Shown: positions 7,619 through 41,000 of the stretch, one piece after another
Layout: each line of letters begins with the position of its first letter
How positions within the stretch are numbered: the first letter of the stretch is position 1
From: Hirudinaria manillensis
Taxonomy: Eukaryota > Annelida > Clitellata > Hirudinida > Hirudinidae
Assembly: GCA_034509925.1 (NCBI GenBank)
Contig: CM067533.1
Coordinates: forward strand, 9,462,156-9,526,155
Length of the DNA stretch: 64,000 bases
Reading direction: 5' to 3'
Translations under genes and position numbers: made by a program
The notes under the pieces: model-generated
What the model was told of the DNA's origin: nothing
The model's input: the letters and a program-made list of their open reading frames with translations, nothing else
The model's database searches: none

Positions 7619-10600
7619 CTATTGAGTGATTGTTTTTAATTCAAACCAAATGGATCCGACAAACAAAATTCAAAAATACCGATCTGCTCAGATTTTTCAG
7701 AGAAAAAGAATTTCCAAACCTGTTTTGCTCCTTCCGAAGCCAGAAAACGGGTTGGGGTCGATTCGGAATTCCGACCTTTCGAGTTCATCTGCGTAGTCGT
7801 CATCCTCCTGGAAGTAGAAACAATCCCAGAATAAGTAAAACCCACAATCATCATCATCACTACTACCACCAACATTGTATCACCATCATCATCATCACAA
7901 GTACTCTACCTGATTCCTCCCGCCGTACGCCTCGCTCATGAGGCTGCTCTCGTCCCCGATGGTGAACTTCGGAGCCCTCGATGACTCGTCGTTGTCGCCC
8001 GTCACGACGCTGTCGGTCTCCACGGCGTCGAACGCCGCCTCCCTGATGGCCGCGATGTTCTGCTCGAGCATCAGCAGCGTCTGGTCCTGCTCCTCCAGGG
8101 CCTCCGTGCAGACGTCCAGGATCCTGTTGGCCGTGCCGGTCAGGAGGCTGTTGGGTCCGTTGTACGTCCGGCAGTTGGAGACGAGAAGGCAGACGTCCTT
8201 GAGGAAGTCCTCGCGGCTGAAGTAGCGATGCTCCGAGGCCTTTCGGTGCATCGTGGACAGGTCGATGGGGTTCTCGACGGTCGTGTAGTAGTCCTTGTAC
8301 TGCTTCTTGTTGACGGGGGCGTGGAAGGGCACGGAGCCCTCCACGGTCTTCAGTCTGTCCTCGATGATGCTGGTCAGGATGTAGGAGAAGGAGACCATGT
8401 CGTCGTCGTCCAAGAGCGGATTGATGGCCTTCTCCAGCTTCATCAGCTTATCCTCCTTCTCTGCTATCCTGCCGAGACAGTGTTCGAACATTTGCCGTGC
8501 TGAGGCCGTCAGCGGACTGGCGGCGCCGTTGTACAGCTCGCAGTTTCGCACGATCTGGTTGACGTCCTTCAAGAAGTCCTCCCTCGACTGGTACTTCCGA
8601 CTCCTCAGGTTCTCGCGGATCGTCTGCAGGCAGGTCGGCTTCTTGACGACGTCGTAATAGTCCGAGACCAACTTCGCGTTGACCGGAAATAGAAACTGGA
8701 CGGAGCACGGCAGCTCCCTCATCTCGTTCAGGATGTCCTCGAAGATGGTCGACAGGGTGACCACGGGGTCGGCTCTTCTCCTGTTGAAAAGCTTCTTCGG
8801 CTTCTTCAGGTACTCGTCCTGCAGAGACAGAGAGCTCAGCTTTCGCTTCTTCTCCTCCTTGGAGACCTTCGGGAATTTCAGGACGAGCGACTTCTTCTTG
8901 ATGTCTTCGGCGTGCTTGATGAGCTGTTTCGAGAGAGTGACCTTCGTACCCTCGATGTTGATGAGAGCCTCGTCCTTCAGGTCCGTCTTTTCCAGCTCCT
9001 CCTGCTGCTCCTCCGACAGGGCCACGTTCCCGACGGCTCCGGACGGGGCGGACGACTTGGAGAACTTGGGGCACTCGCGGTTCGTCCTCATGTGCCCCGT
9101 CTGGCCGCAGGCGCCGCACCTGAGCTTGTTGGGCTTGAGCGGCTTCGACGACTTCGACTTCTTCTTGACGTCCGCGACGTTTCCGTCCTCCATCCTCTTG
9201 ATCCTCCTCAGCTGCTCCTGGAGCCTCTTCTTCTCCCTCTTCATCTCCTCCTTCTGCTGGTCATCCAGAACGGAGAACTGCTGCAGGTAGGACTTGTCCT
9301 TCGACTCCTTGATCCTGATGTAGCGATCGACGACGTTAGGCTTCTTGACGATCTCGACCCTCGTGTATTCGCGTCCGTCCTCGCCCCTGAACTTCCGGGT
9401 TATCTTCAACTTCCGGTTCGCGCCGCCGGCGTTGGCGGATCCGGAGACGCCGTCCTTCTTGTCCTTCTTCTGCTTTCCGTCCGCTCCGCTCTTCATGATC
9501 TTGTTCAGCTCCCTCCTTTCTGCCTCCTCCTTTTCCAGGCTCAGCTGGGAAGTCGTCTTCTTGCTGGAGAGCATGTTCTCGATGTTCTTGCCCATCTCCT
9601 CGAGGTCCGACTCTTCCGCCGAACTCCATTCCTCGTCCGAGGAGAGGACCTCGTCTGAGGCCAATATCTTGTTCTGGAGGTCAAAGATCCTCTGGCACTC
9701 CTCTTTGTACCTCTCGTGGTACTCGGCCATCGAGAACCTGTTGCCCCTGGCGAACTTGCAGATTCCGCTACCTGCGAGCGAAAGTTCGGATGATGGACGG
9801 AAGGAATGGAAAAAAAAAAGTGGTGCTGCTTTGGTGTGACGGAGGAATGATAAGGTGATAATGGTTGTGAGTGTGAAGGATAATATTAATATAAAGGTCG
9901 ATATGGCAATGAGTTATGATGATATGATAGTATTTTAAGTTGTTACATTATATTTCATATTTATTATTATTAATAATAATTTTAAAATTAATATTATTAT
10001 TATTATTTGTATATACACAAGAGATGACCAATTACAATGCTTACCATCCTGGGAGGACTTTGCCTGCTCGGTGGACCGCGTCCTAATCTGGTCGATGACC
10101 TCCCACCTCCCCAGTTTGTTGACCGTGGCCTCGTCGACCCCCAACTTCCTGAGGAGGAGTTTTGCCTTCTTGAGCGGCAGTCTCCTCAGGTCGGCGTCAG
10201 TGCCCATCACGGACCTTTTCATGGCGTTCTGACCCGATTGGTCGTCCTTCAGATGCGCATGAACGGGTTTTAAAATTAGTTAAAGTGTTCATATATTATT
10301 AAATATGTAAAGAGTGGAAAAACTAAATTATGGCTTAACAAAAATAATAGGAAATATGTTTTATATATGAAATATTCATTCCATGGCAAATTATGAAGGC
10401 GCTATTACAGCTCCTATTAAATTATTTAAATTATTAATATTATTAATATTAAACCTCCTATGGTCATTTACAAGTCAAAAAGATTTTCAATGGAACAGAA
10501 ATAATACAATAATAATATATTATGTAGAACATTAATAATAAATACATAGAAATAATATAATAATAATATATGTATATAGAAATAATAAATTAATAATTTA

Positions 10601-12182
10601 TTCATCCACAAAAAACAACCCGAATACCTTTCCCGGCTGAGGCTTGTTTGGTATCTTAACGTACGAGAATCCCTCACCGCATCCTGTTGGGTCCGCGAAT
10701 CCGTTCAGTTGAAGGAGGCACTTGCCCTTCATGGCCGAGATGTAGGCGGCTGTCGTCTGCCACGGTGCTGCCTTGGGCTGGTTAAATTATTATTAATTAT
10801 TATATAACATTATTAATACTATAATAAATCATATTAAATTATTATTATGCGAAAAACAACCTCGTCGTCCATCTTGGACGTCTCTTCGTTGTCTTCCTCG
10901 GCCGCCATCAGGGACTTGTCAGGATAACCTGCATCCTGGTTGGATTGAGGGAGGGAAAATAAAAGGATCGAGAGGTGCAAAAATACGATAAGAATCGCAT
11001 TCATCCACCCTTCCATCCACCCATCCATCCATCCATCCATCCACCCATCCATCCATCCATCCATCCATCCACCCACCCATCCATCCATCCATCCATCCAC
11101 CCACCCATCCATCCATCCATCCATCCATCCATCCATCCATCCATCCATCCATCCATCCATCCATCCATCCATCAATCAATCCATCCAACAACATCGACAT
11201 CATCAAACTAACATTGAGTCTCTGCCTGGCAGCCTGCATGCTGTAATAAGCACAGCACTGCTCAGGACTGACCATCTCCCTCAGTTCCTCCTCGCTGGGG
11301 AGTCTGGCATTGTGCTTCAAGACCCACCAGTTCGAGTCGATGCCTGATAACGATGATGATGATGATGATGATGTTAATGTTCATAACTATGACAATGCAA
11401 GTCATCATTCAATTCTCTGATGACATTCTGTCATACAGAAGATGATGCTGATGATGATGAAAGTGATTATCACAGTCGTTAGACAAATTAGAATGATCAT
11501 TTTTGGATGTCCACAAAGAATCATGCATTTCCAGGTATTATCAGAAGACAATGATGACAATGACTATGATGATGATGATGACTACGACGATGACAACCAC
11601 AACAATTATGACGATGACTACGACGATGACAACCACGACAATGATGACGATGACTACGATGATGACAACCACAACAATGATGACGATGACTACGAGGATG
11701 ACGACCAAGACCACCCACCCGTCCTCTTGAAGTCGGCACAGAGCTTGAGCCTCTTGCGGACGCTGCTCTCCGATTGGTAGGGAAAGGCCTTCCTAACTTC
11801 TTCCATTTTGATCCTCCTCGGACTGTCGTGACTCATCCAGAACAGGCGGTAGATGAACAGCTGGAGTGACGGTGGAGAATTATTGTCGTTATAATTATAA
11901 TAATAATTATTATTATTACTATTATTACATAATAAAATCATTTATTATAAATATTAGTGTTAATCGATAATATTAGCTAGGTAATGTTAACTGCTAAAAC
12001 CTTCAAAACTATGTGATCTGTCTCGAACGATGACCCAACGACTGGGATATAAACGTGATAAATAAGCTGATAACATAATAATACCATTAAAATAACCCGC
12101 AATGTTGTGCGTCATCAGTTATCATCAATTAATCAATCAATCAATCGATTGTTTAATTAATCTCAACAACCTGGATTTATCC

Positions 12183-12222
<40 letters not shown>

Positions 12223-14856
12223 GTTATTGTTATGGAGACCTGGAGAAAGTCTCTCTGAAAAGTGTTGGCCTTCTTGGATCCCGGACAGGGTACCTCCATC
12301 AGGGGACATTCCTGACCGACGGCAAAGAGCCCGTCGACCTCCCTGATGTAGTAACTGCAAGGAATAATTAGTTAATTGATTAACTAATAAACCGAGGACT
12401 AATTAATAATCAGTAGTTAAGTAATAATAACTGAAGTAATAATAACTGTTGGTGACAAAAAAATTATAATAAATAAAAATTAAATACAAAAAATATACAT
12501 ATAAATATATAATTAATAATAATAATAATATAAAAAATATATAATTAATAATAATTAATAAACGAATAATGCAAAACAGGCAGATGCCAACTTGTTCCTG
12601 TTCCTGATGATGAGAAAGTCGGTCGATGGATTCTTGTGGGAGTAGATCGGAGCCCTGAACATGTTATTCTCGAAGGCCTGGAGACTCTGCCCGGGTTGCA
12701 GGGAGCCGAGGAAGGGAGAGGTGTGGGCGTAGGCCAACTCCCCGTAGGTGAATTTGGGGGGATCGGACTCGTAGTTGCCCGGCTTCTGGATGGTAGAAAA
12801 TTATTTATCGGTTAACGATTAGTTAATCGATCGAGATGGCCAAAGTATGGCAAAGAAAAATAAAAAGTTAAAGTTTAGAACGAGACAATTGGAAACACAA
12901 GGGCAACCACAACAACAACAACAACAACGAGACCAACCCTCTTGTAGTAGTTCTTGATCTTGGTCGCCATGCCGATCTGGTTGAGAAGGGGTGGGTACTG
13001 CTCCGAGTACTCGGCCAGGACGATCTCCCCGTCCCTACCCGTGAGGTCCTCTGGGGTCCTCATGAAGAAGATGTCTCCGCCCCCAGCAGCCAATCGTTCT
13101 TGCTCTCTTAGCTGCCAGAACGAGTTGGGAGGGATTATGTTAATTGGATGATTGCAATTATTCGTGAATATGCATGAAGTTAATTGAACGTGGACTGTAA
13201 TCGCTTAAGTAACTTAGGTGAACCAATAAACTAACCTATCGAAATAAAGTAAACAGTAAACCAAAAGTGCTAATTTGCATAAATACCGATGCAAATAAAT
13301 TTGTTTTCAAATAGATTAGGTAGTTTTTAGAAAAAAACTTTGCTGAAATCAAGCTGCATCCATCTGTCCATCCATCCATCCATCCATCCATCATCATCAT
13401 CACCAATCAACTCCAGCATCGGCATCAACCAACCTTTTCCTTCCTCCTGATGTACTTGACCAGAGGCAGTACCGGGTGGGGACCCGGGGAGACCATGGCC
13501 CCCCTGCTGTACTTCTTGAGGTGGGGCCTGTGGAAGTTCCTCAGCTTTGGCAGGGTCAGGTGGCAGGGGAAGAAGGGCTGCATCAGTTCCAGCGCCGGAG
13601 TTGAGTGCTGTCAAATAATTTCAATTAATTAACCATAAAATGTAAATAAATAAATATATATATAAATATGTATCATCCATCATAATTATAGGAACAGCAG
13701 CAACATAAGCAGTCTAATTTTAATAATTTTAATATATATTATAATTCATCCAAATTCATCTCTGATTCTAGAGTTGGGGGTATCATGGTCACCCGGCTGC
13801 ACCGACCAGTATCATCGACACCCCGAGGTTTCTCCCGAGGGCACTGTCCGTGGTGAGTTTGGGGTTGTAGTATTCATCATTGGACATGTTATAATGATGC
13901 TTCTGCTGCATCTCCGTCTCTTCCTGTTCGTTGGATTTTTTTAAATTTAAATTTAAACGTTTTAATTTTTAAATTAAAAAAAAAATTAATTTTAGGAAGT
14001 AAAAGATATAAAATTATGCAGGGTTAATTATGCCTACGGAAAGAAATTATTGCAGTTATTAATAAGCCAAAGTGACGAACATCCAGTTAAATTAATCCAC
14101 ATAATGTTTAATATAATTCATATTATATCAAAACTCATCATAATATATTATTATTATAATCATAATTATATCAAATAATTTTTCTTTAAACTTTTTTTAT
14201 TTATTTAATAAAATATTTAATTTAATTTTATTTGAATTTCTCAGGGTTTCAAGCTCCCTAAAGAGTCACAACAAAAAGGGTCAGGCACAACAAAGCACCC
14301 TTACCTGTGTTTCATCGTCATCTTTAATTTTCTGGGGAGCGGACTTTGACTTTTTCAGCTCCTGTATACAACAAAAATCGAAAGGGACTGTTAGTGACGG
14401 TGCCATCGTTCCGAACCGGAAACTCCCGGTCGAGCCCGAAGGTCCGGAGTTCGAATCCCACCTTTTCCTTCTTGGCGCCCGCGCTTTCCTGCTGTTGTTG
14501 CTGCTGCAACTGGAGCAGCTGCTGTTTCTCTTGGTTGGCGATGTCGCTCTCGTCCGGGATCCTCAGGATCAGGTTCTCGTCGTTCTTGTCCAGGGTGAGG
14601 ACCCGCGGCTCGGGAATGGCGTCCACTTCCTAGAAAGAAGTCGAGGGTGCATTTTGTTTTTTTTTTTTATCAGATCGTGTGAATTGTGAGACTTGTAGGT
14701 AAATAGGTAATGATATTTGTGACGACTGGCATTGTGAAGAGTCCATTTTTGGGGTGAGAGGTCAATGAGTTCAAGTGCCCCCTCGAGGGTTATTAGGTGA
14801 ACATGCGATTTAAGAAAGCATTTTGAAAAGTACCACCAAGGAAAGGGCCCATTAAA

Positions 14857-14887
<31 letters not shown>

Positions 14888-14924
14888 TCATTACTATTAT
14901 TTAATTAGTATAGTTTTTGTTGAA

Positions 14925-14956
<32 letters not shown>

Positions 14957-17900
14957 CTGCAGAATAATCCTTAAAGCCAAAGAAGGTTTCTAACTTGTGC
15001 ATCCCATATTATATCATTGATCCACTTCCCAGTGGAGAGTTCGTAGTTCACCGTGGGTAGGATGCTGTAGCGACGATTTATGGTCACCTCTGGGTGGTCT
15101 ACAAAGTTGGGCACAGGATACTATTATTATTATTATTATTATTATTATCATTATTATTATTATCATTATTGTTATTATTATTATTATTATCATTATTATT
15201 ATTATAACTTTGGGTGGGTTCCGGGCGAGTTACAATTTACATAAGTTATGATTTAATGCAAACGTAACTTAAATTGGTTAAATAAAAGCCAGTTAATACA
15301 ATGTAATGGTTATTATAACTAATAATTGATTAATAAATGATCTCATTATCCGATAGCATTTAGGCACTAAGTAATCTGCACTCACACTTCTCCATGTACT
15401 CCTTGAAGGAGCGAGTGGTTGCCGTGGGGATCCACCCGCATATGGGTATCTTCCTCCCCAACTCCTCCATCACCTGGGCTTTCACGTCCTCTCCGTTCCT
15501 GATGACGTCGTCTTCCCAGTGATATTGGGAAATCATCAGGTGCGCCTCGTCCGGGATTTCCACTTTCGCTTTCTCTGCGCATGTCATTAAGGACTTTATA
15601 GCACAAGCATAATAACAAATGGTATATGATTAACATTTTAACAAATTAACTTTTTATTTATTTTTTTATTATGCATAATTATATTATTCAACGTGATTCA
15701 TCATTTGGCAAGATTTTTTTTTTAATCCATAACAAAGCCATCAAAAAATCCCTCCATAAAAGCGGTGCAAAACTATTTTCAGAAGTCGAGAAAAACCAAC
15801 TTGTCGGAGGAACGTCGGGTTCGTTGCTCGACCTCTCGGTCGCGTCCCTCTTCACGGAGGCGGAGGAAAGCTCCCCGGAGACGACCGACGGCTGCTGGGT
15901 TGCGGCCTCGTCCGCATTGACCTGGAAAAAGAGAGACGAGGGAAGATCACGTGGATGAATCTGTGAATTTCAAAAAGGATGGAGACGATAAGGTGCTAAG
16001 GTGATGATAGTGATGTTGGTGGTGGTGATGGTAGTCCACCACGGTGCTGATTGGAAGAATAATGTTATAATATTATATATTATATTATAGAATAATGTTA
16101 TAATATATACGAATACCTCAGCCACCGTTTCTCTCAGCTTGAAGCCGTGGTTTGCATAGGAGAACCCCTTTCCGTCCTCGGCGACCCCTAGTCCATCGTA
16201 CCACATTCTGGACGGACCATGACGCCAGATGGACGCATCGTGAACTTCCTGTGACCCCTCCTCTGGGGTCGTGCCCTGTGTCATGTCCTCTTGCATGAGC
16301 AGCTCCTGGGAGGGATAGAATGTAAAAAAAGAAAATAACAGACGATCACGTTTCAATTACAGGTGTCCATTAAAATACAATCAGACAGACAGACATCAAT
16401 CGTGACAATCTCAAAAAATTGTGACATGGTCCCATAATTTATGCCTGAAGTATTTTCAAATGCACGTTTTATCAAAATATTTCACAAATAAACACGAATT
16501 CCATGCATTTGGCAACCAACCGATTCATCCTGCTCAATCTCGTCAGATGTAGGGGACCTGGCCCGAGTCCACAGTCCCCTCTTATCGTCCTCGGGGTGGC
16601 CGGTCTCCCTCCGGGAGTCTTGAGGTCTTTCCTCCTGGGCCTTTTTCTTTTTCTTCTTCTTCCAGATGTTCGGATGGTGGGCTGGAGGAATCATCTTGTT
16701 GAATCTCAGGACCTGAAAGAGTGTTGTTGTTGTTATTGTTGGTGTTGTTGTTGTGGCCATTTTAATGGAACCTCGACAAAATTTTTTTATATTTTGCCAA
16801 TAAAGGTGTTGAAATTAAAGCACAACAAAAAAATAACAATTATAATAATAATAATAATAATAACAAATAATTTAATATAATAATAAATAATTTACTCCCC
16901 AGAATAATTTCAACATTTAAATATTTTATAATCAACAGTTCAACTTCAATCGATAATCCCTACCCCTTGCTTGAACTCCGGGAAGAAGCATCTGACGTCT
17001 ATGTTCATGAACGCGGCGGGTATGACCGAAGCCAGGGGGGTTTGCATCATGGGCTTGTTGGGGACCATGGCTTGCCCCAGGGACTGCTCCCTCGGTGCCC
17101 CCTGAGATTCGGCGGTCGTTCTAGGCTCCTCTTCCTCGTCATAGTTGTCGTCGTCGTCATCAGGCTTGATGGTTCCGTTCGTCCGGGCTGCAGTGGAGGC
17201 TTTCCAGGTCTCGACGGATCCGATCTCCTGACTCTCATCCACCTCCAGGGTCTCATTGATATCAAAGAAGTCCTCTGCTCCTGCATTCATTCATTTTGAG
17301 GTTTGTTTGTTTTTTTTTTATATATTGATTTTAATCAGTTTACGTTTTGCAGAATGTTGGTAATAATTGTTTTAAAAATGTATTAATGCTTGTAAATTGT
17401 ATGTTATGATTTTTAATGTGGTAAGTGCACTCGACTTAATTATCCAGCAGGTTGACATTCAATGTTTCAGGCTGATAAAGGACAATAAATTGCTTACCAT
17501 CAGTTTTGTCATCAGCATCTTCATCTTCTTTTGCACTGCCTTCTTCATCGTCATAGTCCTCATCTTTTTCTTCTGCAATCTCCTTCACCATTCCCTCTCC
17601 GCAGAGAGTCGCAAGATTCCCGATGCGATTTCTACATTCCTAGGTGTTGTTGTGTGTGTAAAATTAGGTTGCAATCCATTTAGAAGCTAACTTGTTTGAT
17701 AAAAATTTGTCTTGTTAGTTTGTCGCGTTCAGCATCATCACAGCCGTAAATAATCCGTGTCATAACACATAAGAATGTGTCAATCAAAACGCAACAGAGG
17801 CATTTAAGAAGTTTAATGTTAAAATAATTCAAGAGTGCCAAGTAATTGTTTCAATAAGAAACCTTCCTTTTAGGAAGCACTGAAATGAGTAGAATGTAAA

Positions 17901-18759: not shown

Positions 18760-19910
18760 TCATGCTTTAGCTGCTCTGGCCTTTTCGTTCTTGAGTCTCT
18801 GGTATCTCATCCTGTCTCTCTCCCTGCAATGATGCAATGGTGATCAATGATGCTATAGGATAATTTTTACTATTCCAACATAAAATTATTTATCTGATAC
18901 TTTTTTTGCACCAATGACAACTAATGTGACCATTTCTCATCAAAATATTGATGCTCATGCCATTATCATTTTTGACAATATTAGTCAACAATATCAATGG
19001 AATATCATGTTTACAACTGTAAATGATAACACGTACCTCTTTTTCTCCCTCTTCAATCGTTCCCTTTCCTCAGGAGTCAAATGTGAATTAATCCTAATTT
19101 AAAAAAAAACAACAATAATATTTCAATACTGAATATTTCCTAATTTTAAAATTAATAACTAATAAATTACACTAATAAATTGTCACCAGTAAACTAATTT
19201 TAACTAATAAACTGTCAACAACGACAACAATGAATTGAAAGAACAATAAACTGACTGTTGCTTCCTTGACTTGAAGTCGTTCATCTTTGCAGGCTGCTGT
19301 CTGACGACGCCCTTCTTCGGCTCCGACTTCCTGATCCTCTCCTTCTCCCTGAGGTAGCGTCGGATCAGTTCGGGGTTCGTGATCACTTCGTCCCTGTGGA
19401 CGTAATTCCCGGAATGGTGGTCTCTAAAGGTTCTCGTGATGGTTAACATCGTTATCTGAAGAAGAGGAAGGAAATGTCGCTTTGAAATTGGTTTCGGTTT
19501 CGTTTGTTTTTGTCTTTCTTTGTTTTGGTCTTTCTTTGTTTTGTTTAGATAGGTTTAGTTTCTATAATTAAAAAAAAAGTCACTCACTCTTTTCGTAGGC
19601 TTCAGAGACTGAGGTTTCTTTTTGGAACTGCTCAGTTCATCTCCCTGTGTGAACATCCACGAGATTATAATAGTTTAACAAAAATGGCATAATAATATTA
19701 TCGACAATCCAACAATGGCAGATTCATTATCATTATCATGAATAATTATCATAAGCGAATAATATGAATAATAATGATAGGTGGTCTGTCATACCAAGAG
19801 GTCCCTCTCAATCATCTTTGCCATTTCCTCCACAAGCCTGGCCTCAATCATTGACTCATCTTGACATTCCAAGAAGCTAAAATGGAGTCAAAAAAATTGA
19901 AAATTAAAAC

Positions 19911-19958
<48 letters not shown>

Positions 19959-20603
19959 TCCTCATAATTAACCAATTATTACAATAGAAACGAACCTGTT
20001 CTGATTGTCGAATGCTTGCTGACACCTCTCCATGTATTTGTTCTTATGCTCAGACAAAACAGAAGTGGCTTGTCTGGCAAACTTGAGGTAAGGCGTACAC
20101 AAGTCCGTCCTCTCCGTGCATATTTCTCTGATCTTCTTGATCTTCTCAAACCTTGGCAATGCTTTAATCTGGCGTCGATGAATGAATAATCGTTAACCAA
20201 AGTCATTAACTAGTGTGCCAATCACTGACGACCTAATTTTGACCAATCGCCATCTCTCAAAAGAGGTCAAACCATTTTTAAAATAATAAAAGCCCGTCCC
20301 TACCTCGCTCATCGGAACTCCCAAATCCTGAAGAACTTTTATGGAATCCTGTTCAGAAAGTCTCCTAAAGTCGGCATCTGTGTTGTACAACTTGCTCTTG
20401 TTGACATTCTCTACAGCATCCTGGATTATTTACATATATTTAATATTAAATAATAAAATCCAAACAAATCATAGTAATAAAGAAGATGCTGTAATATATC
20501 ATTAATAAAAATAATAGAACCACAACTGCAAAAATATTATAATAATAACTCTTTTAATAATAATAATAATATTTTGTGATTTTATAAAGTGCTCTATTTT
20601 TCC

Positions 20604-20642
<39 letters not shown>

Positions 20643-22376
20643 AAGTTACCAGAGAAATTACAACTCAATAGAGATCAATACACAATCAAAGTTAAAGGAT
20701 AAAAGGGTGATAAGAATCAAGTGCAAACCTTTTTGGCTATCGGCTTGCAGGGCACTTTGATGTAGGAGTATCCGACCCCGCAGTCCGTGGGGTCCGTGGA
20801 CTCGTAGGCATCCAAAAGGCACTTGTTCTCCATGGCCATTTTGTAGGCGTTTGTCGTGGACCAGGGGGCTGCTTTGAGCTGCCGATAGGAATTAGCAATA
20901 TAAATTTAACCGATTATTAACTAACTGAGGTTGTCCTCATGCATATGCAAATGACCGACATTCCATAAATTATAATATTATAATAAATAGTAACTGACAG
21001 CATCTTCAGTCTCATTTTCTATGACATCAGCTTCATCATCTTCTCCCTCTTCGTGCTCCTTCATGTGGTACCCTTCATCCTGTTGGTGATGATTATGATT
21101 ATATTATGATTATGAATTCAAGCTGGATGGTACTTGGCCCAATTCCAAATGAAAACAATTAAAATTAATAACATGTATATCAAACAATAATAACACACAA
21201 ATCAATAATCAAATATATTTAGAAAACAATACATAAATGGGTTAAATAATATGATAAAGGACATAATAAAGGTATAAATAAAGTAAAATAAAGGTAATAT
21301 AATTTTTAAAAAAATATGGTTCACCCTCAATCTCAACTCAGCACTCCTCATGCTTTTATAGGCACAGTAGAGTTCAGGGGTCAGGTCAAGGTTCAATTCC
21401 CTCTCTTCTGGAAGTTTGACACCCCTTTTGACGGCCCATTTGTTATTGTCTGAGTTGAATGACAGTAATAAAGGTCAAAGTCAATAAAAACATTTTAACT
21501 TAATATGTAAATATATGCATAATAATTATTATAATAATATATATTATTATTATATATAATACTGTAATACTATATAGTATTATTATATACATATTATATG
21601 TAATGGATGTAAGTAATGCATATGCACGAAAGTGAACATTCAAATCGACACTCACTTCCAACCCTGTCGAACTCCGACCAATGGCTCAACCTCCTCCTGA
21701 GGTACACCTCGGACTGGAAGGGAAAGGCCCTCCTCAGGTCTTCCATCTTCAAACTCCTCGGGTTGTCCCTGCTCTTCCAGAAGAGCCGGCAGATGTACAG
21801 CTGAATGGGGAAAAGCAAAAATCGACGAATGTTATTTAATCAAATATTAAAATCCTTAGCGAGTAACTTGTAATACTAATAATATCGATTGACAATGTAA
21901 ACAATGAGTAATCTTCATACTAACATCTACATAGTCTCGGAGGATGTTGTGAGCCAATTTACAGTAAGGTTTCGGAACCTCCATCAGCGGACACTGCTGG
22001 CCAACGGCAAAAAGTGCATCTACTGTTCGAATGTAGAAACTGGAAAAGCAATGTTAACAGGTCAGATATAACTTATTTACAGCTTAGCGAATTCAAACTT
22101 TGAAGACCAATCGTTATCGTAGACGCGATACGGCAATCGGCAAAATCGTTCGATACCTTTCGTTAGAGTATATGACGAGAAAGTCGCTCCTTTCCATGAC
22201 GTGCTCGAAGATGGGGGCCCTGTACATGCGGTTCTCTATGGCGGTCAGGTGCTGGTTGGGCACGAGGTGACCGAAGAAAAGTCGTTCGTTCCCAGAAGTA
22301 GCAACGTTTGTTCCAAACTTTGGTTCTGGTGGTTTTGCTTTGCTTTCCTGAAAACAGGTCATGCATAAGTAATTTG

Positions 22377-22408
<32 letters not shown>

Positions 22409-25400
22409 ATAAGAGTACATATAGAGTAGAATTGTTATATACAAAAATATATATATATATATATATATATAAGAGTACATATAGAGTAGAATTGTTATAT
22501 ACAAAAAGTCAACCAAAATGTCAACCTCTAGGTAGTAGGTGCACATTTCTGATGCCATGCCCAATTGGTTCATGAAGGGAGGGTAGTCCTCGCTGAACTC
22601 CAATAGGATGAGGTCTCCGTCCTTTCCAGTCAGGTCCCTGATCCTCTTCATGTGCTGGTATTCCCCGATGGATTCTTCCATCTTTCGTTGCTGGAAGAGA
22701 AAGAAAAAGATGGCGTCGTTAGAGATGATCAAAGTAATATTAATAATAATTGTTATTATTATGATGACCAACAGATATAAATGGGTATCAGAATTATTAT
22801 TAATTATACAAATTACTAATATTATCATCACTAATGATGACACTTTAGCTATCAATCCACTTTATAGCCAATGCTATTAAACACTGCCAAATGATTCCAC
22901 ATCGACTTACTTTGTTGGCAAACTCCATGTGCGGACCCAACGGAAAGACTTTCTCAAGTTCTCCCTCCCCCGCCACGGACAGCCGGGGCCTGTGGAAGTT
23001 CCGCAGGTGCTCCTCTTTGCCGAACATCGGCGGAAAGATGACCTGCGACATTTCGTCGACGGGCGTCGAGTGGCAGAAGCCGAGTTCGGCCGAGAAGCTG
23101 AGCCCGAGGTCGGGTCTGTAGTGATCGTCGCAGTTCAATTGAGGTGCCTAAACAAGGTGTTTACAATCAATATCAATAATTTGGTTACATTGACTCACCT
23201 ATGGGAATGACTAATAAATTATCGAATAAATAATAATAATAATAATAATAACCATAACCATGTGATTAAAAATCATTGTAGCATCAGTATCCATCAGTAT
23301 AACATTAGGCCATCTACCAAATCTATTTATTACCTTAGTTGTCTTCATTGCTTCTTCATCCTCTCTGAGGTAATAAAAGAGCGTTTCGTCAACAGTCACC
23401 GGTTTTGGAATTCCAGACTCGATCAGATCCTAGGTGGTAGCACGTGCAAATGTGTCAGAACAGTGTTTTATGGTCGCAAATACAAAATCCATCTTTGCTT
23501 TTGGGCGATCATTAACACATCAAAGGTTGTTGTATATTATTAAGTTATATATTATTAAAAGTTAACCTCAATAGTTAACTTAATATGATCTTTCATAGCA
23601 ACTTTTGAAAAATGCATATAAAGAGACAATCTTCATTCAATCCTCACCTTGTCATCCCAAACAATGTCGTTGATCCAGTCCCCTCTGTACAACTTGACGT
23701 TGAAGTGTTTGTAGCGATCGTAATGGTACGTCCCTTCGGGGGCCGCCGGCCCCAAGCCCTTGGCCGTGACGAGGTACGGGGCCGAGGTGTCCGGCCTCGA
23801 CTCGATCTTATAATCGTCTGTTGAGGGAAGGTTAATGAATGAATGAGGTGGTTTGGAAAGGGTTCATTGGTGTTGTTAGTGGAAATTGGAATTCATTTTG
23901 AATGGCAAATCGTGAATAAATTAAAACGAAAATGCCAGAGATAATAACCAATTATCATTCAATATTGATTAAATCGATATTATTAATGAAATAACCATAA
24001 CAACAATAAAAATAATCGTGATAACTGCTAATGTTAACAAATGCCAATGCAAATATTTCAAAATCTACACTAACTCTGCCTAAGCTCCGTCAGCAGGTAT
24101 CTTCCCTCGGGCATCTTGTGGCGGTCGTCCGCACTCAGGTGCTCCATCAGATCCGTCACGACTTCCTGCTTTTCTCCATCGAAGTTGAAGACGAGACCTT
24201 CTATTCCATTCGTTCGAGTGATTGTTTTCAGACGCTCTGGAATGGATTGAAAAGAAAGAAATCTGTTATTAATCTAACATTTATTTAACTATATTTATGG
24301 AAAATGTTTTTTGAAAATTCTCCATGAAAAACAAACAAACAAACAAAATCAATTTAATCAAATTGTCATCAATGTTTAACTGACAAATTAGTTGATAATA
24401 AATAATTTAGAAGATAATTATTTATATTTGTTGACATTCAGCTGCCATACACTCACTGGAATAAGGCATGAGGCCGATGTCAAAGTCTCCGTCGTGTGCT
24501 CTCTTCTTCGTGAAGTCGTGATCAAAACTATACTGCAAATCTTTGACGGCCTTGTCGATTTTATCCGAACTGATCTCTTGCTTCTGATCGAATAAAAATA
24601 TTTTTATTTTCATATGAATTCCTTGTTTATAATTTATTGTTAAAATTACAAGAAGATATCCAGAAAAAATTTTAGAGATTGGTTTAGGATTTGTTATGAA
24701 GTGCCGCACGAAACTTACAATGTCTGACAGCCATCGGTATGAAAACATGTTTGCACTTTTGGGCAAACCGACCCTGTCGTACCAAAATCTGGAAGGACCA
24801 TCTCTGTCAATGATATGAAGTCCATTCAAACCTGGAATCACTGAACCCTGTTGTTGATCAAGTTTATTAAAATCTTTAACAGGTTAAATATGGAAAAGAA
24901 ATAAACGTTAACAATCACCGATAAGTCATCTTCAATTTCCTCAGGTTCTGCTTGCCTGGGTTCTTCATAGCAGTTGATGCCTTTGGCTGGGGTTTTTTTG
25001 GATTTTTTCTCCAAACGTTTGAAATAATCTCTTTCCCATGAGTGTTTGGGAGGGAAGAGATTGTTAAACCTCAGTGTCTGAAAGGTTTCAATGGGTTGGT
25101 TATGTTTTGTGCTGCTATCAGTTTAAGATATCCATGTTTAACTTTACTTTGTCCGGTTCAAAATCAGGGAACCATTGCTGCAATGTATCCAATGGAACTT
25201 GTGGCACATTTTCGAATGCAGCTTCATGGTCGTCGCATGGCTGACAGAACTCTACCAATTGTTGTTCTAAATCCTGTATATCTGCTTGATCGATTTCTCC
25301 GTCATTTTCAGAATCAGAATCTAAATCCAGATCAAGATCTCGAAGTCGTTTCGAGTCAGGTTCGGTCTCCTGTTGACAAGCTTCAATCGAATTGCTCACG

Positions 25401-25635
25401 AGATCTTGCAAGCACGACTCCTCGTCTTCGCTGTCACCGAACAGTGACTCTTGGTCGAAATAATCCACGTCGTCTAAACATTCGAAAATAATAATCAATC
25501 TTACGACTAAATAGGTTTACCTTTCCGATTATTTGAAACAAAAAACAAGCGAAACCAACTCGTGTGTTCGACTTGCACTTCGCCATCATCTTCATTCAGG
25601 AAGTTTGAAGTGTTTATTTCTAGTAGGTTCATCAT
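18760..25635 (-). CDS. TAF1-like paralog without zinc knuckle or bromodomains
   Basis: A second TAF1-family gene, head-to-tail upstream of canonical TAF1. Exons: 25635-25560, 25473-25148, 25077-24919, 24847-24719, 24583-24457, 24236-24075, 23817-23648, 23429-23334, 23147-22911, 22690-22526, 22347-22157, 22039-21925, 21800-21656, 21449-21325, 21079-20999, 20878-20729, 20420-20304, 20168-19996, 19876-19795, 19644-19588, 19455-19256, 19093-19037, 18823-18760. Every junction keeps frame with GT-AG signals, giving 1067 residues and no internal stop, so this is not an obvious pseudogene. Seen: acidic N-terminus, [74 protein letters not shown], a winged helix (LYICRLFWKSRDNPRSLKME, about 652-699), NTDADFRRLSEQ, then a charged helical tail (ERERLKREKKR) ending AKA-stop. 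Missing: the TAND FLFGNIN motif, zinc knuckle, both bromodomains and acidic tail. It could be a tissue-specific TFIID subunit; function is inferred only. Confidence 0.93.
19915..19956. repeat. (AAT)n microsatellite
   Basis: AAT trinucleotide run in an intron of the TAF1-like gene. A similar ATT run lies at about 20608-20641. Confidence 0.9.
22381..22506. repeat. 60-bp tandem duplication with AT core
   Basis: Two near-identical 60-bp units (22381-22440 and 22441-22500), each an AT dinucleotide run followed by a unique 36-bp segment starting aagagtacatatagag. They sit in the intron between the TAF1-like exons at 22690-22526 and 22347-22157. Confidence 0.9.
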
Positions 25636-29259: not shown

Positions 29260-32062
29260 TTAGAAATAAGTACTACTTTCGCTTTTAGTCCTCGTTAAAC
29301 TGGATTCGAGGCTGTCAAATTGCTGAGAGGGTCCCACGAACAGGTACGGATGGTGGCTCGCACTTGCGACCCTTTGATCTGGAATTTCGTAGGAGTCTAA
29401 GACGCTTAAAGACTGAGACTGACTTGGGGTCACTGAGGACAGATTACACTGGGCTTTGAAGGCAGGGATCTGAGACCCTAGCGTGACATACTCAGGGGAC
29501 GTACCTGGATTAGTTTCGTAGGCGTTGAAAGCTGAGTAGCCAGGGGAACAAGTGGATCTGAACGTGGAATTGTAATCGATCGAATGAGACCAAACTCGAG
29601 ACCAGTCCGTCGTGGCTTCGGTAGCGAGGGTGAAGCTCGAGCAAGCAGACGATGGCATGGAGAAGTTCATCTGATGGTATCGATGCTGGTAGTCGTAGGC
29701 CGATTGGTTACTATGCGGTCGTCGCTGCTGGTAGCCGTGGTCGCCGAAGTAGTTGCTGTAGTCGCTCGACGACTGGAGCTTGTGGTGATCGGCATTGTAG
29801 AAGTCGCTGTAGGCGTACGACGGATGAGCCATGTTCTTGTCTGCCGACGATGTTTTTCTTTCTTGCATCACTTCCGACTTGTTTGCGTACAAAATGTCCG
29901 AAGACGAAATGGGGCCTCCTTGATGCTGCTGATCGAAGTAGTTTTGTTCGACATCTTTGTAGTAGGCCGGCTCTTTGGAGCGAGTCGGAATTTCGGGAAG
30001 ACGGGCAGAGAAGTAGGGGTACGCTGGTCTCCGGGGGACCGGAAAGGATGTACCACTGCAGACTGGATTCATCGGAGACTGAAAATACTGTGCCGCCCTT
30101 TCTATTGAATGGTCGTTTCTCTTTGGTGGGAATTCGCCAAGTCCGCTCCCTTTAGAAGACGTAGAAGGTCAATAATGTTTAAACAATCTAAATGTTTATT
30201 ATAATCTTCCTTTAAATTAATTAAAGATTGGAAATACTATTAAAAATATTCCTGATAACGTCTAGAATTGGTTGCTACTCAAGGCGTAAACGTGTATTTT
30301 TGTGGCGTATATTTTCTTAACGTTTTTTATTTCTTCAGAGTTTCATAATTTGTTTGTGAGTGAGTGAGGAGGGGGGAGGGTGGAGCATTTCTATAAATAG
30401 AAAATAGACTGACCAATCAGGACGTTCCCACAGTCTATGGTAGTCGACGATACTTCCGTTGTTTCGGCGTTCGACCTCCGAACTTTTTTCGTTTTCACTT
30501 TTCTGTCACTCCACTTGAATAAAATTAATTTAATTTAATTCAAATTAGCATAATTTATTACATAACCGTTTTTTTTAAACTGAAATGATAATAATAAACA
30601 TTATAATGAAAGTAGTATGGTCTATCGAAGGCCTACCTGCTTTTCATTGGTCTGTCGCCTTTTTCTTGAAGTCACCTCTTCGTCGTCGTCGTCGTCATTT
30701 TTCTCTTCCATGCTTTTGGATTTTATCTTCTTTTTCCCCATGGAGCTAGACTTTGGATCGGGTCGTGGGTGGTCGTGAACTCCTTTGCACTGGAAGTAAA
30801 CAACTCCGCCCACCGTTCGCCAGACGTGGGTCACCGGTTTTCCACCGTGACCGGTGCACTTCACCTGAACAAGTACCCCCTCGCATCCAGGTGTTGGACA
30901 CGGTTGACCTGAAGGAATTAAAGGGAATTGTTAAAGTGATTGATTGATTGCTTGATTGATCGATTCTCGGCCAAACAAGACATGCCAACCTTTCTGCTTG
31001 CTTCTCGCCTTGTCGCAAATGAAGGGCCTGACGTGAACTATAGGCGACTCGCTGCACGAGCCGCCATTACCACCGCAGCTTCCACTACCACCGCTACTAC
31101 TACCACTGCCACTGTGTTGTAGTTCCAACTTAGACGACGACGACGACGATGAAAGATGGTTGGAATCGACTCTGTCCTTCTGTCCCTTCGTTCCTATGCA
31201 GTTAATGGAACATAACATGACCCCAAGACAGGACTTTTTGAGTCGAGTCGAGTCGTGGTTGTTGGTGTTTCTCATCGCCCAACCGCTCTGATGGGCAGAC
31301 GCCTCCTGGTGTGCGGAGTCGTAGACCAGTTGCTGGTAACCGTTGGGCCACGGCTGGAACTTGTCCAGTTTGTTGGGCTGGAAAAGACATTTGCATGAGA
31401 ACTGGAATTGTGGTTGAATTTGGTGCTGCTATTGTTGTTGTTAATGTAGATTGATCTCGTTATGGTTAATATTATTGTTATTATTAATAAATAATTGTTA
31501 TTATTATTATTATTATTGGTAGTCGTTGTTGTAGTGCCGTTGTTTTTGTAATAACATAAATTATAATTTGTAATATTTTCGCAGAAATTATGCCGACGAC
31601 TTGAATTAAAATATATAAAATGGAATAATAAATTAATACAATAAGTAAGCGATCCTTTTTAATGTAAAAATATTTATAATTTAATCATAATTAACATTTT
31701 ATTTAATAAAATATTTTATTATTTGCACCAATAATCACCATGGGCAAAATGTCGTCCTTTATGTGCCAGTTACTGACGATGTCGTTGTAGCAGCCGCCGA
31801 GACGCTCTTGTCGCTGCTGTGGCAGCGACAGCTGGTGGTACTGGTTCGACGTGTGATCGCCGATGGGCGCTTTGTTGCCGCCAGGGAAGCAGTAAAAGTT
31901 GCTGCTGTCAGTCGGAGCGGAGAAGTTGATGAGAGTTTTCGAGATGGAATTTGAGATGAAGTTGACTTCTGTGAAAGTTTGTTGGTCGTTGTTGTTGTTG
32001 TTGTGGTGTTGTTGGTGTTGTTGTTGTTGGTGGTGGTGGTAGCCGGTCGTATCGCTTTCCAT
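29260..32062 (-). CDS. gcm: Glial-cells-missing (GCM) family transcription factor
   Basis: Zinc-containing GCM-domain DNA-binding protein that acts in the nucleus. Exons 32062-31739, 31377-30990, 30908-30637, 30502-30414 and about 30145-29260 give 652 residues. The N-terminus is His/Gln/Asn-rich. The GCM domain begins near residue 97 (NWHIKDDILPM) and includes FQPWPNGYQQLVYDSAHQ, GWAMRNTNNHD, LKKSCLGVMLC, RPFICDKAR, CTGHGGKPVTHVWR and CKGVHDHPRPDP. A KRRQ/KKK basic stretch and an acidic run follow. The C-terminal exon is Tyr/Ser-rich, as expected of an activation region. Two uncertainties: the last acceptor must be the AG at 30146-30147, not the one 4 bp upstream, to hold frame; and an AG at 32075-32076 just before the ATG implies an upstream 5' UTR exon, or possibly extra in-frame coding. 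About 50 residues of Ser/Gly sequence interrupt the GCM domain (31039-31194). Confidence 0.93.
31039..31194 (-). other. Ser/Gly-rich insertion inside the GCM domain
   Basis: About 52 in-frame codons (residues 170-221) rich in Ser and Gly lie between CSINCI and VRPFICDKAR. In known GCM proteins these blocks are separated by only about ten residues. No GT-AG pair that would remove it cleanly was seen. Confidence 0.75.
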
Positions 32063-36110: not shown

Positions 36111-38092
36111 TCATAAAATGGTTAACTTCAACTTCAGCTCGTCTGGTGGAAGAGTCAATTCTTCCAGTTCGGTATCATTTAATCGCTCCAGTAGAGAATT
36201 CCAGAGCATGGCAAAGTGGTCCAAATTTCTAGCATGGACCACGTGATAGGTCAAAGGTTGCGAGATGTTTTTGTACATCACGGTGGCATTGAGCGATTCC
36301 AGTGTGGTCTCTCCTTTGATGTCTACGTACCTGATGTTCTTGACTGACCCTGGCAGGAGACCGGTCACGTAGACGTCGTCAACCCAGAGAAACGGAGTAG
36401 TCTAGGAAGGTGAATTAGGTACGGAACGTCTTAGATTAATGCTAATTAGTACTATTGATTCGTGTCTACTTCCTAAACAACTTAGTTTTGTTTTAATTCT
36501 TACTACTGAGTCATGTCTTTGGTGCTACTACCTAAACTATCAAGCTGCCTAATTTGCAAACCACTCTCGATTTGAAATCACGTACAAGGTTTTATATCCT
36601 TTTAAACAAGTTTAAAGGTATTTTGATAACAAATTTGTTTAAATCAGACTATGTAGGACTATGTAGAGGCAATTGCTTATACCTACCTTTACGGCATTAC
36701 ATAGTCTTTTGACTAGAGGCATGGTGATGAAGTATATCAATCCTGCACAATACTTTGGGTAGTAGGCCATTCCTGGTAAATCCATTTTGCTGACGCACCA
36801 TTTAAGACAATTTTTCTTGTCTCTCAGGATTGGCATGGTTTTGGAGTCGTACACGTGGCAGATGATCGACCTGGCAGACGATTTGAGGATCGGACCGAGA
36901 GTTTTGGGAGTGTTCCTGAGTACGAGAGGCAGTTGTACGTCTCCAGTTTTCTCGTCGTCTTCGTCTTTGTCTGTAGCTGGATCGAAGTCTGAGTGGCGTA
37001 TGAGGTACTTTTTGACGTGGAATATGTTCACGAAGGTGTCATCGTCTGCCTTCATTACGATCGGCACGTGGCTGCAGTACGTTGAGAGCCATCTGAAATT
37101 GTTTCGAAAATTTTTAGAATGGAAATCTGTCACTTCGTTTCAACGGGTTGGCTCTAATGTTCTCGCTAACGAGATATGGAGTATTAGAAATGAATTTAAG
37201 AATTTAATTTCTAAAATTGAATAATAATAATAATAATAATAATAACAATAATAATAATAATAATAATCGTAATAATGAATCGTTAAGGAATAAGGCTTAA
37301 GGTAATAGTGAAAAATAAATGAATTTCTAAAGTAAATAAATTTATAATGCAGTTTATTAATGCAACTTTTCTACCGGACACAAACGAAGGATTGCCTAAC
37401 CTCAGAGCAAATACGCCCTTATAACTGAGATTCTTATACGTATCCATAAAGTCTCCTTGGAGGATATCGCCGTACAAGGCAAACTCCAAATCGAGTCTCT
37501 GCTGATTCGATTTCACATCATTCTTTCCTACGACAAAAAGTATTCTCATGTTGTAATCTTTAAACAGTCTAGGAAATCCCCAAGTCTTCCTAATGGCCTG
37601 CCTATGCTGAAAATTCATGACCGAGGTATGGACGTAAAAGATCCAATGGATTTTCTCTGAGGACGGTTTCGTAGCTTTATCGTCCAACGGTACCCAGCCT
37701 GATTTCGGGACGAACGAACCGTGGTGTTTGGAACCGATGGGATCGTCTGAGTTCGGACTTCTATCGAAAGGCGAATGGTAAGCCGTGGTGAAGCAGTAGT
37801 CGGGGTTATGCATGAGTGGCTCGACTGCCAGTAACGCCGCCTGGCGACCTTCGAGGTACTTCAACTCCTCGAAGACGTGCTCCAAGTCGCCCTGATCCAC
37901 GCTCATCTTCATTTCCACTCGTGTCTTTCGGACTTCTAGAGACGTCTCGTCGACGATGAAATCAATCGATCGAAGACGGGACGCTACCTCTGATGACGAT
38001 TTCTCGAAATTTTGTCTCGAAACTTCAATGACTGTATACAGAGGAATGATGGCTGCCACCAGGCACAGGAATATTCTTAGGTTTAGCTTCAT
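36111..38092 (-). CDS. Beta-1,3-galactosyltransferase-like GT31 enzyme
   Basis: Golgi type II membrane glycosyltransferase that probably transfers Gal or GlcNAc in a beta-1,3 linkage to glycan acceptors. Three exons, 38092-37401, 37092-36687 and 36401-36111, join in frame to 462 residues. A short cytoplasmic start (MKLNLR) precedes a hydrophobic anchor (about 7-23), then a stem. GT31 motifs follow: RQAIRKTWG, GDILQGDFMDTYKNLSYK, RWLSTYC, the metal-binding KADDDTFVN (Asp 247-249) and WVDDVYVTGLLPG (about 372-384, the EDVY(V/L)G motif). Possible N-glycosylation sites are NLS, NAT and NIS. The middle exon carries an acidic insertion (DKDEDDEK) between the DDD and the later motifs. Exact acceptor specificity and B3GALT/B3GNT subfamily cannot be told from sequence alone. 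Confidence 0.92.
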
Positions 38093-41000
38093 TCTGGTTG
38101 CTTTCTGATAGCAGGTAGAAATAATCTATTTAAATCAAACCTTTTGTTTTTAATTTATAATTTAAACGAATTTAGAATTTCTGAAGACAAGCAAAAAAAC
38201 AATGAAAATGATTTCCGGTTTCTAGTTGTAAGAGACACAGAGCAAGTAAGCGTTAAAATTTTGTTGCAAAGAAATAATAAAAAGGTCCGATAAATCATTG
38301 TAGCAGTTCGTTTCGATCGTAAGAAAAAGTTTTGAAGTTACTGGAGATATTGAACCGTGTTTGAAAGCCACCATTGAAATGATATCGATTGTCTATAATG
38401 AAGTGAATCACTAACTTGTTCATTCAGTACCTCCAAAGCCCATCCCAAAAACTCCACATGGGCAAATATAAATACAGATCTTGCTGAGAAGAAGAAGAAG
38501 AATAAATAATAGAAATAATTTCAGAAATAATCGGAACCATTTAGAAACAAGAACTCTATGACTTCATGCCATGACGATAATCACCCGAAGAGCATTGAGG
38601 ACTAAGTAGGTTTGTTTAACAGCTTAGGATCTTATTTGCCTCGCCTATTAACTCTCGCACAGGTTTTAGCACAGGTTTTAGCACAGGTAAGCAACGAAAT
38701 GCTTCGTGCCTAAACTGCTTCAATAACATGCCTTTAAAGTCTACAGAAGCGTGTGCTTGTGTTATACTCTGACTAATCATGACTTAGAACAATGGAGGTA
38801 TTGTTGGTGGATTGTGCGCGTTATCGAGTAATGACACGGATGGAGATTTATTGATGTTTATGTCAATCATTTATCACCGCTCAGGTCCTTGGGATGGGCG
38901 ACCTGGGTGAATCGATTCACATCTCCAGTTGCTGGTGAAATTATTAAATAAATATTATATTTTTAATTATAATTTCAAATTTATATTTTCTCTTTTTTTC
39001 TATCTGTATATTCTTCGCATGATGTTTATGCGAGTGGTCGTTTGTTTGGAATTTGTTTGATACAATATTATTTTATTATGTATTATCACATTATATATTA
39101 CATTGTATTATTATTATTATTATAATAATAATTAATATTATAACTTATTATGGTTGTGTCTCAGCAGAATGAATGTCTTTTCTAACTTGCATCACTCATC
39201 CGTGACGTAGTGATTTTTTAGTTTTTCCATTTTGATCGCAAGATGGCAGACCAAATTATTTTCGTTTTATATTTTAAATCTTTCAAGCTAGCTTTTCTGA
39301 GAACGTCTTCATTTTTTTTTTATTTTTAAAATTCAATTCAAATTCAATTCAAATTTAATTTAAAGTCTCGTTGTTGACAAAAAGCTGATCGCTGCGAATC
39401 TGAAATTAACATCCACGTGTTTTCCTCTTCATCAAAATTTGTTTGAGACAAAAGCTTCTGATAATCTTGCGTCAAACATAAGGTTGCTATAAATAATTAT
39501 TTAACTAAAAATCTCTCGCGATACCAAGAAACTCTCCCCTAAAATCTTTAAAGACAGTTGGGTGTACGTAGTTTGTAGTTTGGGTCAATAAACAATTTTT
39601 TTTTATATTTCAAACGTGTAAAACAATAGACTTTATTGATTTTGTTATCAAGTTTCTCCTCTCATAGATGGTAGCCACTTGCTAACCCAGCAGTTTGTGT
39701 CTGCATTGACCTCGACCTCAAAGGTGAAATCAAATTATAGTTTAAAAACTCTACCAACTATGCAAAGAAAAATAACAGGAAGCTGTTTTGATTCCATTGA
39801 AGCTCTTTTTGATGGCAACATGAAACTCGAATATGGACTCATTTCTAACTTCGCTCATCAGTCGATCGGTTTGCAAATGGAGGAATTCAGGTGCAATTGA
39901 AGTTGAAAAGTGACTTCCCAGTTTCGTCCTTCATTTCGTCCAAGTTCCAACGAGAAGTACTCGGAGTTCTACTCAATTCTTTAGGGGACATAAATTAATT
40001 GCCACTTGATTTTAATTTATTCAACAATAATCTATTATCATTTATTATCCGAATAAACTTGGATTAGAAATTCGAGGTCAGAGATGATATTGAATAGAAG
40101 GCTAGGCTGCGTTTTCATTGAGTGCCTGGTGGAAATTACCTAGAATTGTCTGCTGTTGCCTTGAGGGCCGACAATAATCGAATTGTATGTAACAATAATT
40201 AACGAGTCACAAATCCATGGAAAATACCCTGTAAACAATCTTAGTGATTCTTGGTGAAACTTGAAGATACCTTAATGTTCTAAAAATCGAAGTGTATTTC
40301 ATAAACCAACACTCATGATTTACACTTAAATAGAAGTGGGAATAAATTAATGTGCTTCCTAGGCAATTAGCTCGGCTACGACCACAGGGCCATTAATTAT
40401 CTCCCAAGCGACCAGATAACTCGAGCACATTGGCGGACCATTGTTACATTGAAGCATCAGTTGTTTTTTTTTATCCTAATACGCTGGTCAAAATTTTAAA
40501 GAAAGCCACTTGTTTTTTAAACTTTTCAAATCAAATATTGCGAGCTTAAAGTTACATTCATTACAGTCACAAATGAATGGTAAAATCGTAGAATGAACAG
40601 TTACTGTAAATAATGATCAGAATCACTTCAGAGACCTATTAGCTCTGAGATGTCTTGGCGTGGGACTTTGGCGTCATCAGAATCGTCGAGAAATATTAAT
40701 GGCTCAGAGTGTCATAAATTAATAAACATCAGCGAGGAGAGGAACTCATTTTGAATGAAACCAAGTCGAACAAAATATTTTTTTTCTAGGTGATTTGATC
40801 ATTTAGATTCTGTTACATGTCTATATTCTCATCAAAACAATACAACGAGAATGGAGTCGTACGAGAGCACGGTATGGCTGGTTCTTTCTAGCGATCCGAT
40901 ATTTTATTTACGTTTGATTCAGTTGGTTTCGGTCTATTTTTTTGTTTTTATTTCGAGGTTTCGTATCATCGATGGATTATTTTTACCATCAGGGGCTAGG

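Follow-up and report, generated by a model that had tools for sequence, protein, structure and literature searches.

A 64,000-nucleotide stretch of the genome of the leech Hirudinaria manillensis (GenBank assembly GCA_034509925.1, contig CM067533.1, positions 9,462,156 to 9,526,155 of the forward strand; hereafter the window) encodes two complete members of the TAF1 family, TAF1 being the largest subunit of transcription factor IID (TFIID). As an earlier note on this DNA had proposed, the two genes lie head to tail; both are on the minus strand, about 0.6 kb apart. The upstream gene (gene A, 25635-18760) is a TAF1 paralogue, the 23 exons of which join into a single open frame of 1080 codons followed by TGA; every one of the 22 introns has GT-AG boundaries, and the frame contains no internal stop. 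The earlier note likewise had 23 in-frame exons without stops, and its count of 1067 codons differs through slightly different splice choices. The downstream gene (gene B, 18148-7213) is a complete canonical TAF1 of 23 exons and 1752 codons, which contains TAND1, DUF3591, the zinc knuckle and two bromodomains (Table 1), and its bromodomain exon does start at 9771, as previously given. The scan that located AATAAA between the two genes found neither AATAAA nor ATTAAA just past the stop of gene B (7215-6700).

Domains retained and lost by gene A

Three anchoring regions have been described in human TAF1 (PMC10442232; this and the other papers cited are represented here by excerpts): TAND together with the Lys249 motif, proposed to hold TBP and TAF11-TAF13; the TAF6-binding motifs, for which a model places them within residues 300-550; and, for TAF7, DUF3591 with RAPiD. 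All mapped crosslinks from human TAF1 to other TFIID subunits fall in its N-terminal half, and once translation has reached about residue 1240 the last TAF1 assembly domain has already emerged (PMC10442232). The best PDB match of gene A is human TAF1 (4.6e-115). Its DUF3591 core (PF12157, 321.5 bits, 1e-95) is near complete, covering profile positions 30-441 of 444, and the glycine of the ts13 site is kept (G716 in PMC5854669, placed by own count on the 1893-residue chain). The Lys249 motif region of gene A (FPDFEPDKTLRFNNLFPPK) and its GPSRFWYD and GDWINDIVWDD segments align with gene B and human TAF1, where the WYD and WINDIVWD segments are assigned to the TAF6-binding region by position alone. 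Among the motifs listed in the earlier note, DUF3591, WYD and NFHRP are kept as described, while the one written as DADLRRL reads DADFRRL in gene A.

DUF3591 is the sole Pfam match of gene A at E<=1, in a run covering all of gene A and the first 1022 residues of gene B, with the large exon of gene B scanned separately. Under this limit gene A contains no match to TAND1 (PF09247), which is matched in gene B at 2e-17, nor to the zinc knuckle or the bromodomains, which are present in gene B; the acidic tail of TAF1 is also absent from gene A. When the whole window was searched by tblastn with the TAND1, knuckle and bromodomains of gene B (filters and composition correction off), no second copy was recovered below 1e-4, the only matches being gene B itself. 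The next-best matches were at 3817-3677 for the knuckle (3.4e-4, 32% identity) and at 4725-4624 for the acidic part of TAND1 (4.7e-4), both far from gene A, and had an E of 1.9 for the bromodomain query, and a scan of the window for LFGN-type motifs gave no TAND1 for gene A. In the whole genome (148.4 Mb, 23 contigs), all 11 DUF3591 matches (E<=0.001) lie within genes A and B. No second copy of the knuckle-bromodomain region of gene B was found there, as other than gene B itself only nine short, weak matches (30-41% identity) were obtained, which would be expected of other bromodomain proteins.

The tail of gene A from KFAR onward shares 56 of 160 residues with gene B and 53 of 155 with human TAF1, up to the helix preceding the knuckle, and homology to human TAF1 (phmmer) stops at residue 1240 in the numbering of the 1872-residue chain (residue 1261 in that of the 1893-residue chain). 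Gene A is therefore read as truncated there and not refitted, and a newly acquired replacement tail, such as the short charged one described in the earlier note, is ruled out. As judged from this alignment, the truncation is at the end of a normal TAF1 segment, close to the published limit of the assembly half in human TAF1 (~1240). The zinc knuckle cysteines of TAF1 are located at 1285-1300 (PMC5854669), and gene A would end about 24 residues before the knuckle if that paper numbers the longer chain, as G716 suggests by own count. The earlier note was thus right that an intact upstream copy lacks the zinc knuckle and both bromodomains, and had overlooked the missing TAND1, with which the loss is not limited to acetyl-lysine reading.

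Table 1. Exons and other features of genes A and B (positions in the window)
Feature	Position	Strand	Content
Gene A exon 1	25521..25635	-	start codon; without TAND1-like sequence; weakest part of the gene A model
Gene A exon 2	25148..25473	-	acidic region, PDFEPDK at its end
Gene A exon 3	24919..25077	-	TLRFNNLFPPK; aligns with human TAF1 Lys249 motif (Lys249 placed by own count)
Gene A exon 4	24719..24847	-	GPSRFWYD segment; TAF6-binding region of TAF1 (human 300-550)
Gene A exon 5	24583-24457	-	diverged
Gene A exon 6	24236-24075	-	diverged
Gene A exon 7	23648..23817	-	GDWINDIVWDDK, aligned with human GRWEDNIIWDAQ
Gene A exon 8	23334..23429	-	exon model
Gene A exons 9-18	19996..23147	-	DUF3591 (residues 453-879), ts13-site glycine, KFAR
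Gene A exons 9-13	23147-22911, 22690-22526, 22347-22157, 22039-21925, 21800-21656	-	exon model
Gene A exons 14-18	21449-21325, 21079-20999, 20878-20729, 20420-20304, 20168-19996	-	exon model
Gene A exons 19-23	19876-19795, 19644-19588, 19455-19256, 19093-19037, 18823-18760	-	homologue of the pre-knuckle TAF1 segment, then TGA
AATAAA	18518..18523	-	between gene A stop and gene B start
Gene B exons 1-2	18148-18035, 17639-17498	-	TAND1 (PF09247, 2e-17)
Gene B exons 3-20	10045..17280	-	include DUF3591 (3.6e-146)
Gene B exon 21	7910..9771	-	single 1862-bp exon: KFAR region, zinc knuckle, both bromodomains
Zinc knuckle zf-CCHC_6, gene B only	9044..9127	-	Pfam 3.8e-6
Tandem bromodomain region, gene B only	8030..8779	-	two stretches, Pfam 8.1e-43
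Gene B exon 22	7807-7720	-	acidic C-terminal tail
Gene B exon 23	7454-7213	-	acidic C-terminal tail and stop

Ancestry and constraint of gene A

In a comparison which took in 21 of the 22 introns of gene B, nine of the 22 introns of gene A match an intron of gene B in exact alignment column and phase, and 12 match within four columns. The corresponding means in 2000 random intron placements are 0.12 (maximum 3) and 1.03 (maximum 5), respectively; chance is therefore excluded as the source of the matches, and the two genes are of common origin. Introns 1, 3 and 17-22 of gene A have no gene B intron within eight columns, and introns 18-22 fall inside the stretch that forms the single exon 21 of gene B. 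This exon has a GC content at third codon positions (GC3) of 0.90, and the same portion carries five introns in gene A. The single-exon 3' part of gene B may have arisen through intron loss or partial replacement by complementary DNA (cDNA) in gene B, or the difference may be due to intron gain in gene A. A GATG-type minisatellite is located within another part of gene B, in an intron (10970-11180).

Sequence identity in DUF3591 is 42.3% between genes A and B (196/463), 41.6% between gene A and human TAF1 (193/464) and 67.8% between gene B and human TAF1 (324/478). At the 145 ungapped DUF3591 sites where gene B and human TAF1 differ, gene A has the gene B residue at 25, the human residue at 23 and neither of the two at 97. 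A three-sequence tree (LG+G4, 616 columns) has branches of 1.46 for gene A, 0.23 for gene B and 0.27 for human TAF1. As silent sites are saturated, the age of the duplication was judged from the point at which gene A attaches to the path between gene B and human, the gene B side of which makes up 0.454 of the path (median of 200 bootstraps; 2.5-97.5% range 0.29-0.61). In power simulations with the same gene A branch, the observed value was reached in 0 of 60 runs when the true fraction was set to 0.05, and likewise for 0.15 and 0.25, in 5 of 60 for 0.35 and in 29 of 60 for 0.454. A recent tandem duplicate is rejected on the mid-path attachment and these simulations. The duplication may, as a rough estimate, be nearly as old as the split of the leech lineage from vertebrates if gene B and human TAF1 have evolved at similar rates, a dating made with a single outside TAF1 (human) and a very long gene A branch.

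Fourfold sites differ between genes A and B at a proportion of 0.696 (of 79 sites), with 0.716 as the expected value for saturation, as against 0.42 and 0.39 for the first and second codon positions; the proportions of synonymous and non-synonymous differences (pS and pN) are 0.67 and 0.40. The ratio dN/dS between the two genes was not used because silent sites are saturated. In a neutral simulation starting from gene B and run to the matched total divergence (simple uniform model, 463 codons, 500 runs), a mean of 17.4 stops (minimum 6) accumulated and amino-acid identity fell to 25%, as compared with no stop and 42% identity observed in gene A. Gene A retains 170 of the 317 residues common to gene B and human TAF1 despite the saturated silent sites, and is therefore not a decaying pseudogene.

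Partner subunits elsewhere in the genome

The genome search covered nine TAF families, the TAF histone fold and TBP (TAF2, TAF3, TAF10 and TAF13 were outside it). At least two loci each were found for TAF1, TAF4, TAF7 and TAF8, and at least three, in tandem, for TAF6. All locus counts are lower bounds, as the fourth histone-fold match, on contig C9, which reads by eye as TAF6L, had been missed by the TAF6_C search, and TAF5L was not turned up by the TAF5 profile search of the genome. Ten open reading frames (ORFs) taken from the partner loci are open and match their own Pfam families, namely one each of TAF7 and TAF4, two of TAF8, three of TAF6 and three of TBP.

One TAF7 (281 codons) and one TAF4 (607 codons) each occupy a single open frame and are apparently intronless, while the other TAF7 and TAF4 copies are spread over several frames; the two TAF8 frames contain 269 and 204 codons. 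The TAF6 tandem trio is located at C5:891-901 kb, and each copy has one frame for the histone fold and another for the HEAT part. Two of these copies are nearer to human TAF6 than to TAF6L in the PDB comparison (262.9 vs 64.3 and 133 vs 45.8 bits), and 47 of 60 bootstraps place the three in a group that excludes human TAF6. Over aligned residues, identity between copies is 38-45% for the TAF6 HEAT open frames, 35% for TAF8, 42-54% in three short blocks of TAF4 and 68% for TAF7 (48/71 residues). By these figures, the TAF6 and TAF8 copies appear to have diverged about as far as genes A and B, the TAF4 copies roughly so, and the TAF7 copies clearly less.

In the genome, 45 matches to the TBP profile were obtained. 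At C2:12753116-12766256, 14 ORFs of the TBP family, each about 180 codons long, form a tandem array with a spacing of about 970 bp, and in the part of it that was examined eight full-length copies are open with the same start; on our own reading these ORFs are TRF2-like. Two single-frame TBP genes, 56-57% identical, lie in tandem at C8:2.725-2.728 Mb (2730-3530 and 4295-5113 of the extracted stretch), and further TBP exons are spread over several frames on contigs C1 and C9. TBP matches of equal score and profile range also occur at C1:7377391 and C15:106227, possibly representing an uncollapsed haplotype or a recent copy.

Possible roles of gene A

Gene A is a TAF1 paralogue of apparently ancient origin, held under constraint, in which the assembly half of the protein is what remains, and is most likely, with a confidence somewhat above even, the scaffold of a variant TFIID. 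Gene structure, domain content, ancestry, constraint and the existence of extra partner genes are established by the analysis; expression, assembly, choice of partners and tissue are inferences. A variant TFIID on gene A would be nucleated on TAF6 and TAF7 as usual. Without TAND1 it would not capture TBP in the usual way; removal of TAND from human TAF1 abolishes co-translational TBP recruitment (PMC10442232), and TFIID still forms after TBP depletion in mouse embryonic stem cells (PMC10174690). Without the knuckle and the bromodomains, it would neither bind DNA through the knuckle nor read acetylated histones, and would be less dependent on chromatin acetylation. Gene A probably works with some of the duplicated partners (TAF4, TAF6, TAF7, TAF8 and the TBP family), and its use may be confined to one tissue, such as the germ line.

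For a variant TFIID, intact second copies of several subunits would be expected, and such copies are present for TAF1, TAF4, TAF6, TAF7 and TAF8 among the nine families, and for TBP. The extra partner genes thus make a dedicated complex plausible, and the suggestion of a variant TFIID in the earlier note holds up, apparently strengthened by the multi-copy TAF4, TAF6, TAF7, TAF8 and TBP-family genes. In its fullest form, the proposal is that of a second TFIID which has an assembly-only TAF1 as its base, without the TAND hold on TBP or acetyl reading, and served by dedicated TAF4, TAF6, TAF7 and TAF8 and by expanded TBP/TRF2-like genes; this form is tentative and on balance doubtful. If true, it would amount to a case in nature in which TFIID assembly is uncoupled from the handling of TBP and the reading of chromatin. 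The reason why animal TAF1 combines the roles of scaffold, TBP control, DNA contact and acetyl-lysine reader in one protein is hard to test because TAF1 is essential. A natural assembly-half paralogue beside a full TAF1 would make it possible to test directly which functions of TFIID depend on the additional parts, and would show that duplication and specialisation extend even to the largest subunit of TFIID.

Several observations weigh against a variant TFIID on gene A. The second TAF6-binding stretch (HWEDDIIW in human, HWEDDVIR in gene B) is not recognisable by alignment in exons 5-6 of gene A, and exon 1 is supported by its frame and splice sites alone. For four of the nine TAF families (TAF5, TAF9, TAF11 and TAF12), a single locus each was found (lower bounds). 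The partner copies need not form one old set, as the TAF7 copies are much closer to each other than genes A and B are, and, as the count covers TFIID subunits only, the extra copies may simply reflect a general abundance of retrogenes in this genome.

The main rival is that gene A acts as a competitor, a truncated TAF1 which, by binding TAF6 and TAF7, would reduce or tune canonical TFIID: it would occupy assembly intermediates but neither deliver TBP nor read chromatin. Its domain content would be identical in that case, and TAF1 has been called the limiting factor of TFIID assembly (PMC10442232); the multi-copy TAF4, TAF6, TAF7 and TAF8 are more readily explained by a dedicated complex than by an inhibitor acting alone, and the competitor is considered unlikely. 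A lower probability still is given to a role outside TFIID, in which gene A would serve another complex through a TAF7-type interaction, as the diverged TAF6-binding region and the missing TAND1 would allow; however, an alignment can still be made for the WYD and WINDIVWD segments and for the TAF11/13-type motif. About equally improbable is a single transcription unit, in which exons 1-16 of gene A would splice to exon 20 or other exons of gene B and provide alternative N-termini. The end of gene A exon 16 and the start of gene B exon 20 are both in phase 0 and join in frame, and the short distance between the genes is also compatible with such splicing, but gene A has its own stop and AATAAA, gene B starts with an ATG and a TAND1 exon of its own, and exons 17-23 of gene A are homologous to the same region of gene B. 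Least probable is that gene A is a pseudogene in decay or a recent copy being lost, which would explain the long gene A branch (1.46 vs 0.23 for gene B) and its several absent domains. Against this stand the 23 intact exons, the constraint despite saturated silent divergence and the near mid-path attachment, and the pseudogene reading is rejected on the intact frame together with the neutral and attachment-point simulations.

The variant-TFIID scaffold proposed for gene A resembles several known systems in part. With canonical metazoan TAF1 (human and gene B) gene A shares the DUF3591 core, the order of segments and the WYD and FHRP motifs, as well as introns with gene B, and differs in the absence of TAND1, zinc knuckle, bromodomains and acidic tail and in its 42% identity in DUF3591. 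Yeast Taf1, which acts with Bdf1/Bdf2, is likewise a scaffold subunit without bromodomains (PMC1199594). However, TAND is reported to be important for TBP binding in yeast (PMC4949998) and fungi are included in the knuckle alignment (PMC5854669), whereas gene A lacks both TAND1 and the knuckle and coexists with a full TAF1. Arabidopsis TAF1b/HAF2 is also a second TAF1 gene without the N-terminal TBP-binding part (PMC4949998); in contrast to gene A, which lacks the knuckle and bromodomains, no C-terminal loss is reported for it in the excerpts of that paper, and it belongs to another lineage. Primate TAF1L, a second TAF1 expressed in spermatocytes, lies at an intronless locus, is about 95% like TAF1 and retains the 38 canonical exons (PMC11423858); gene A, with 22 introns and 42% DUF3591 identity, is old and truncated and is not a retrogene of the TAF1L type.

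The testis TAFs of Drosophila comprise Cannonball (TAF5), No hitter (TAF4), Meiosis I arrest (TAF6), Spermatocyte arrest (TAF8) and Ryan express (TAF12) (PMC4200853). As in the leech, several TFIID subunits are duplicated, with TAF4, TAF6 and TAF8 in both; unlike in the leech, no TAF1 or TAF7 paralogue is named in the excerpts of that paper, while TAF5 and TAF12 have one locus each in the leech genome (lower bounds). Among the Arabidopsis, yeast, primate and fly cases, as far as the excerpts describe them, none combines both TAF1 losses with a full TAF1. A search of open-licence papers on TAF1 duplicates and TFIID expansion, covering titles and the starts of abstracts, gave nothing like gene A, which is weak evidence of novelty. 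No relative is encoded in 99 pattern-matching stretches from prokaryote genome contigs or in 37 from viral contigs, as expected for a eukaryotic gene.

Other parts of the window contain, by Pfam, GCM, galactosyltransferase, inositol polyphosphate kinase, RasGAP and VPS9 domains, as well as a SUEL-lectin-like exon under the curated Pfam cut-off. These neighbouring domains are located at 30934-31428 and 36642-38125 on the minus strand, and at 42794-43255, 47469-48392, 59245-59841 and 814-1278 on the plus strand.

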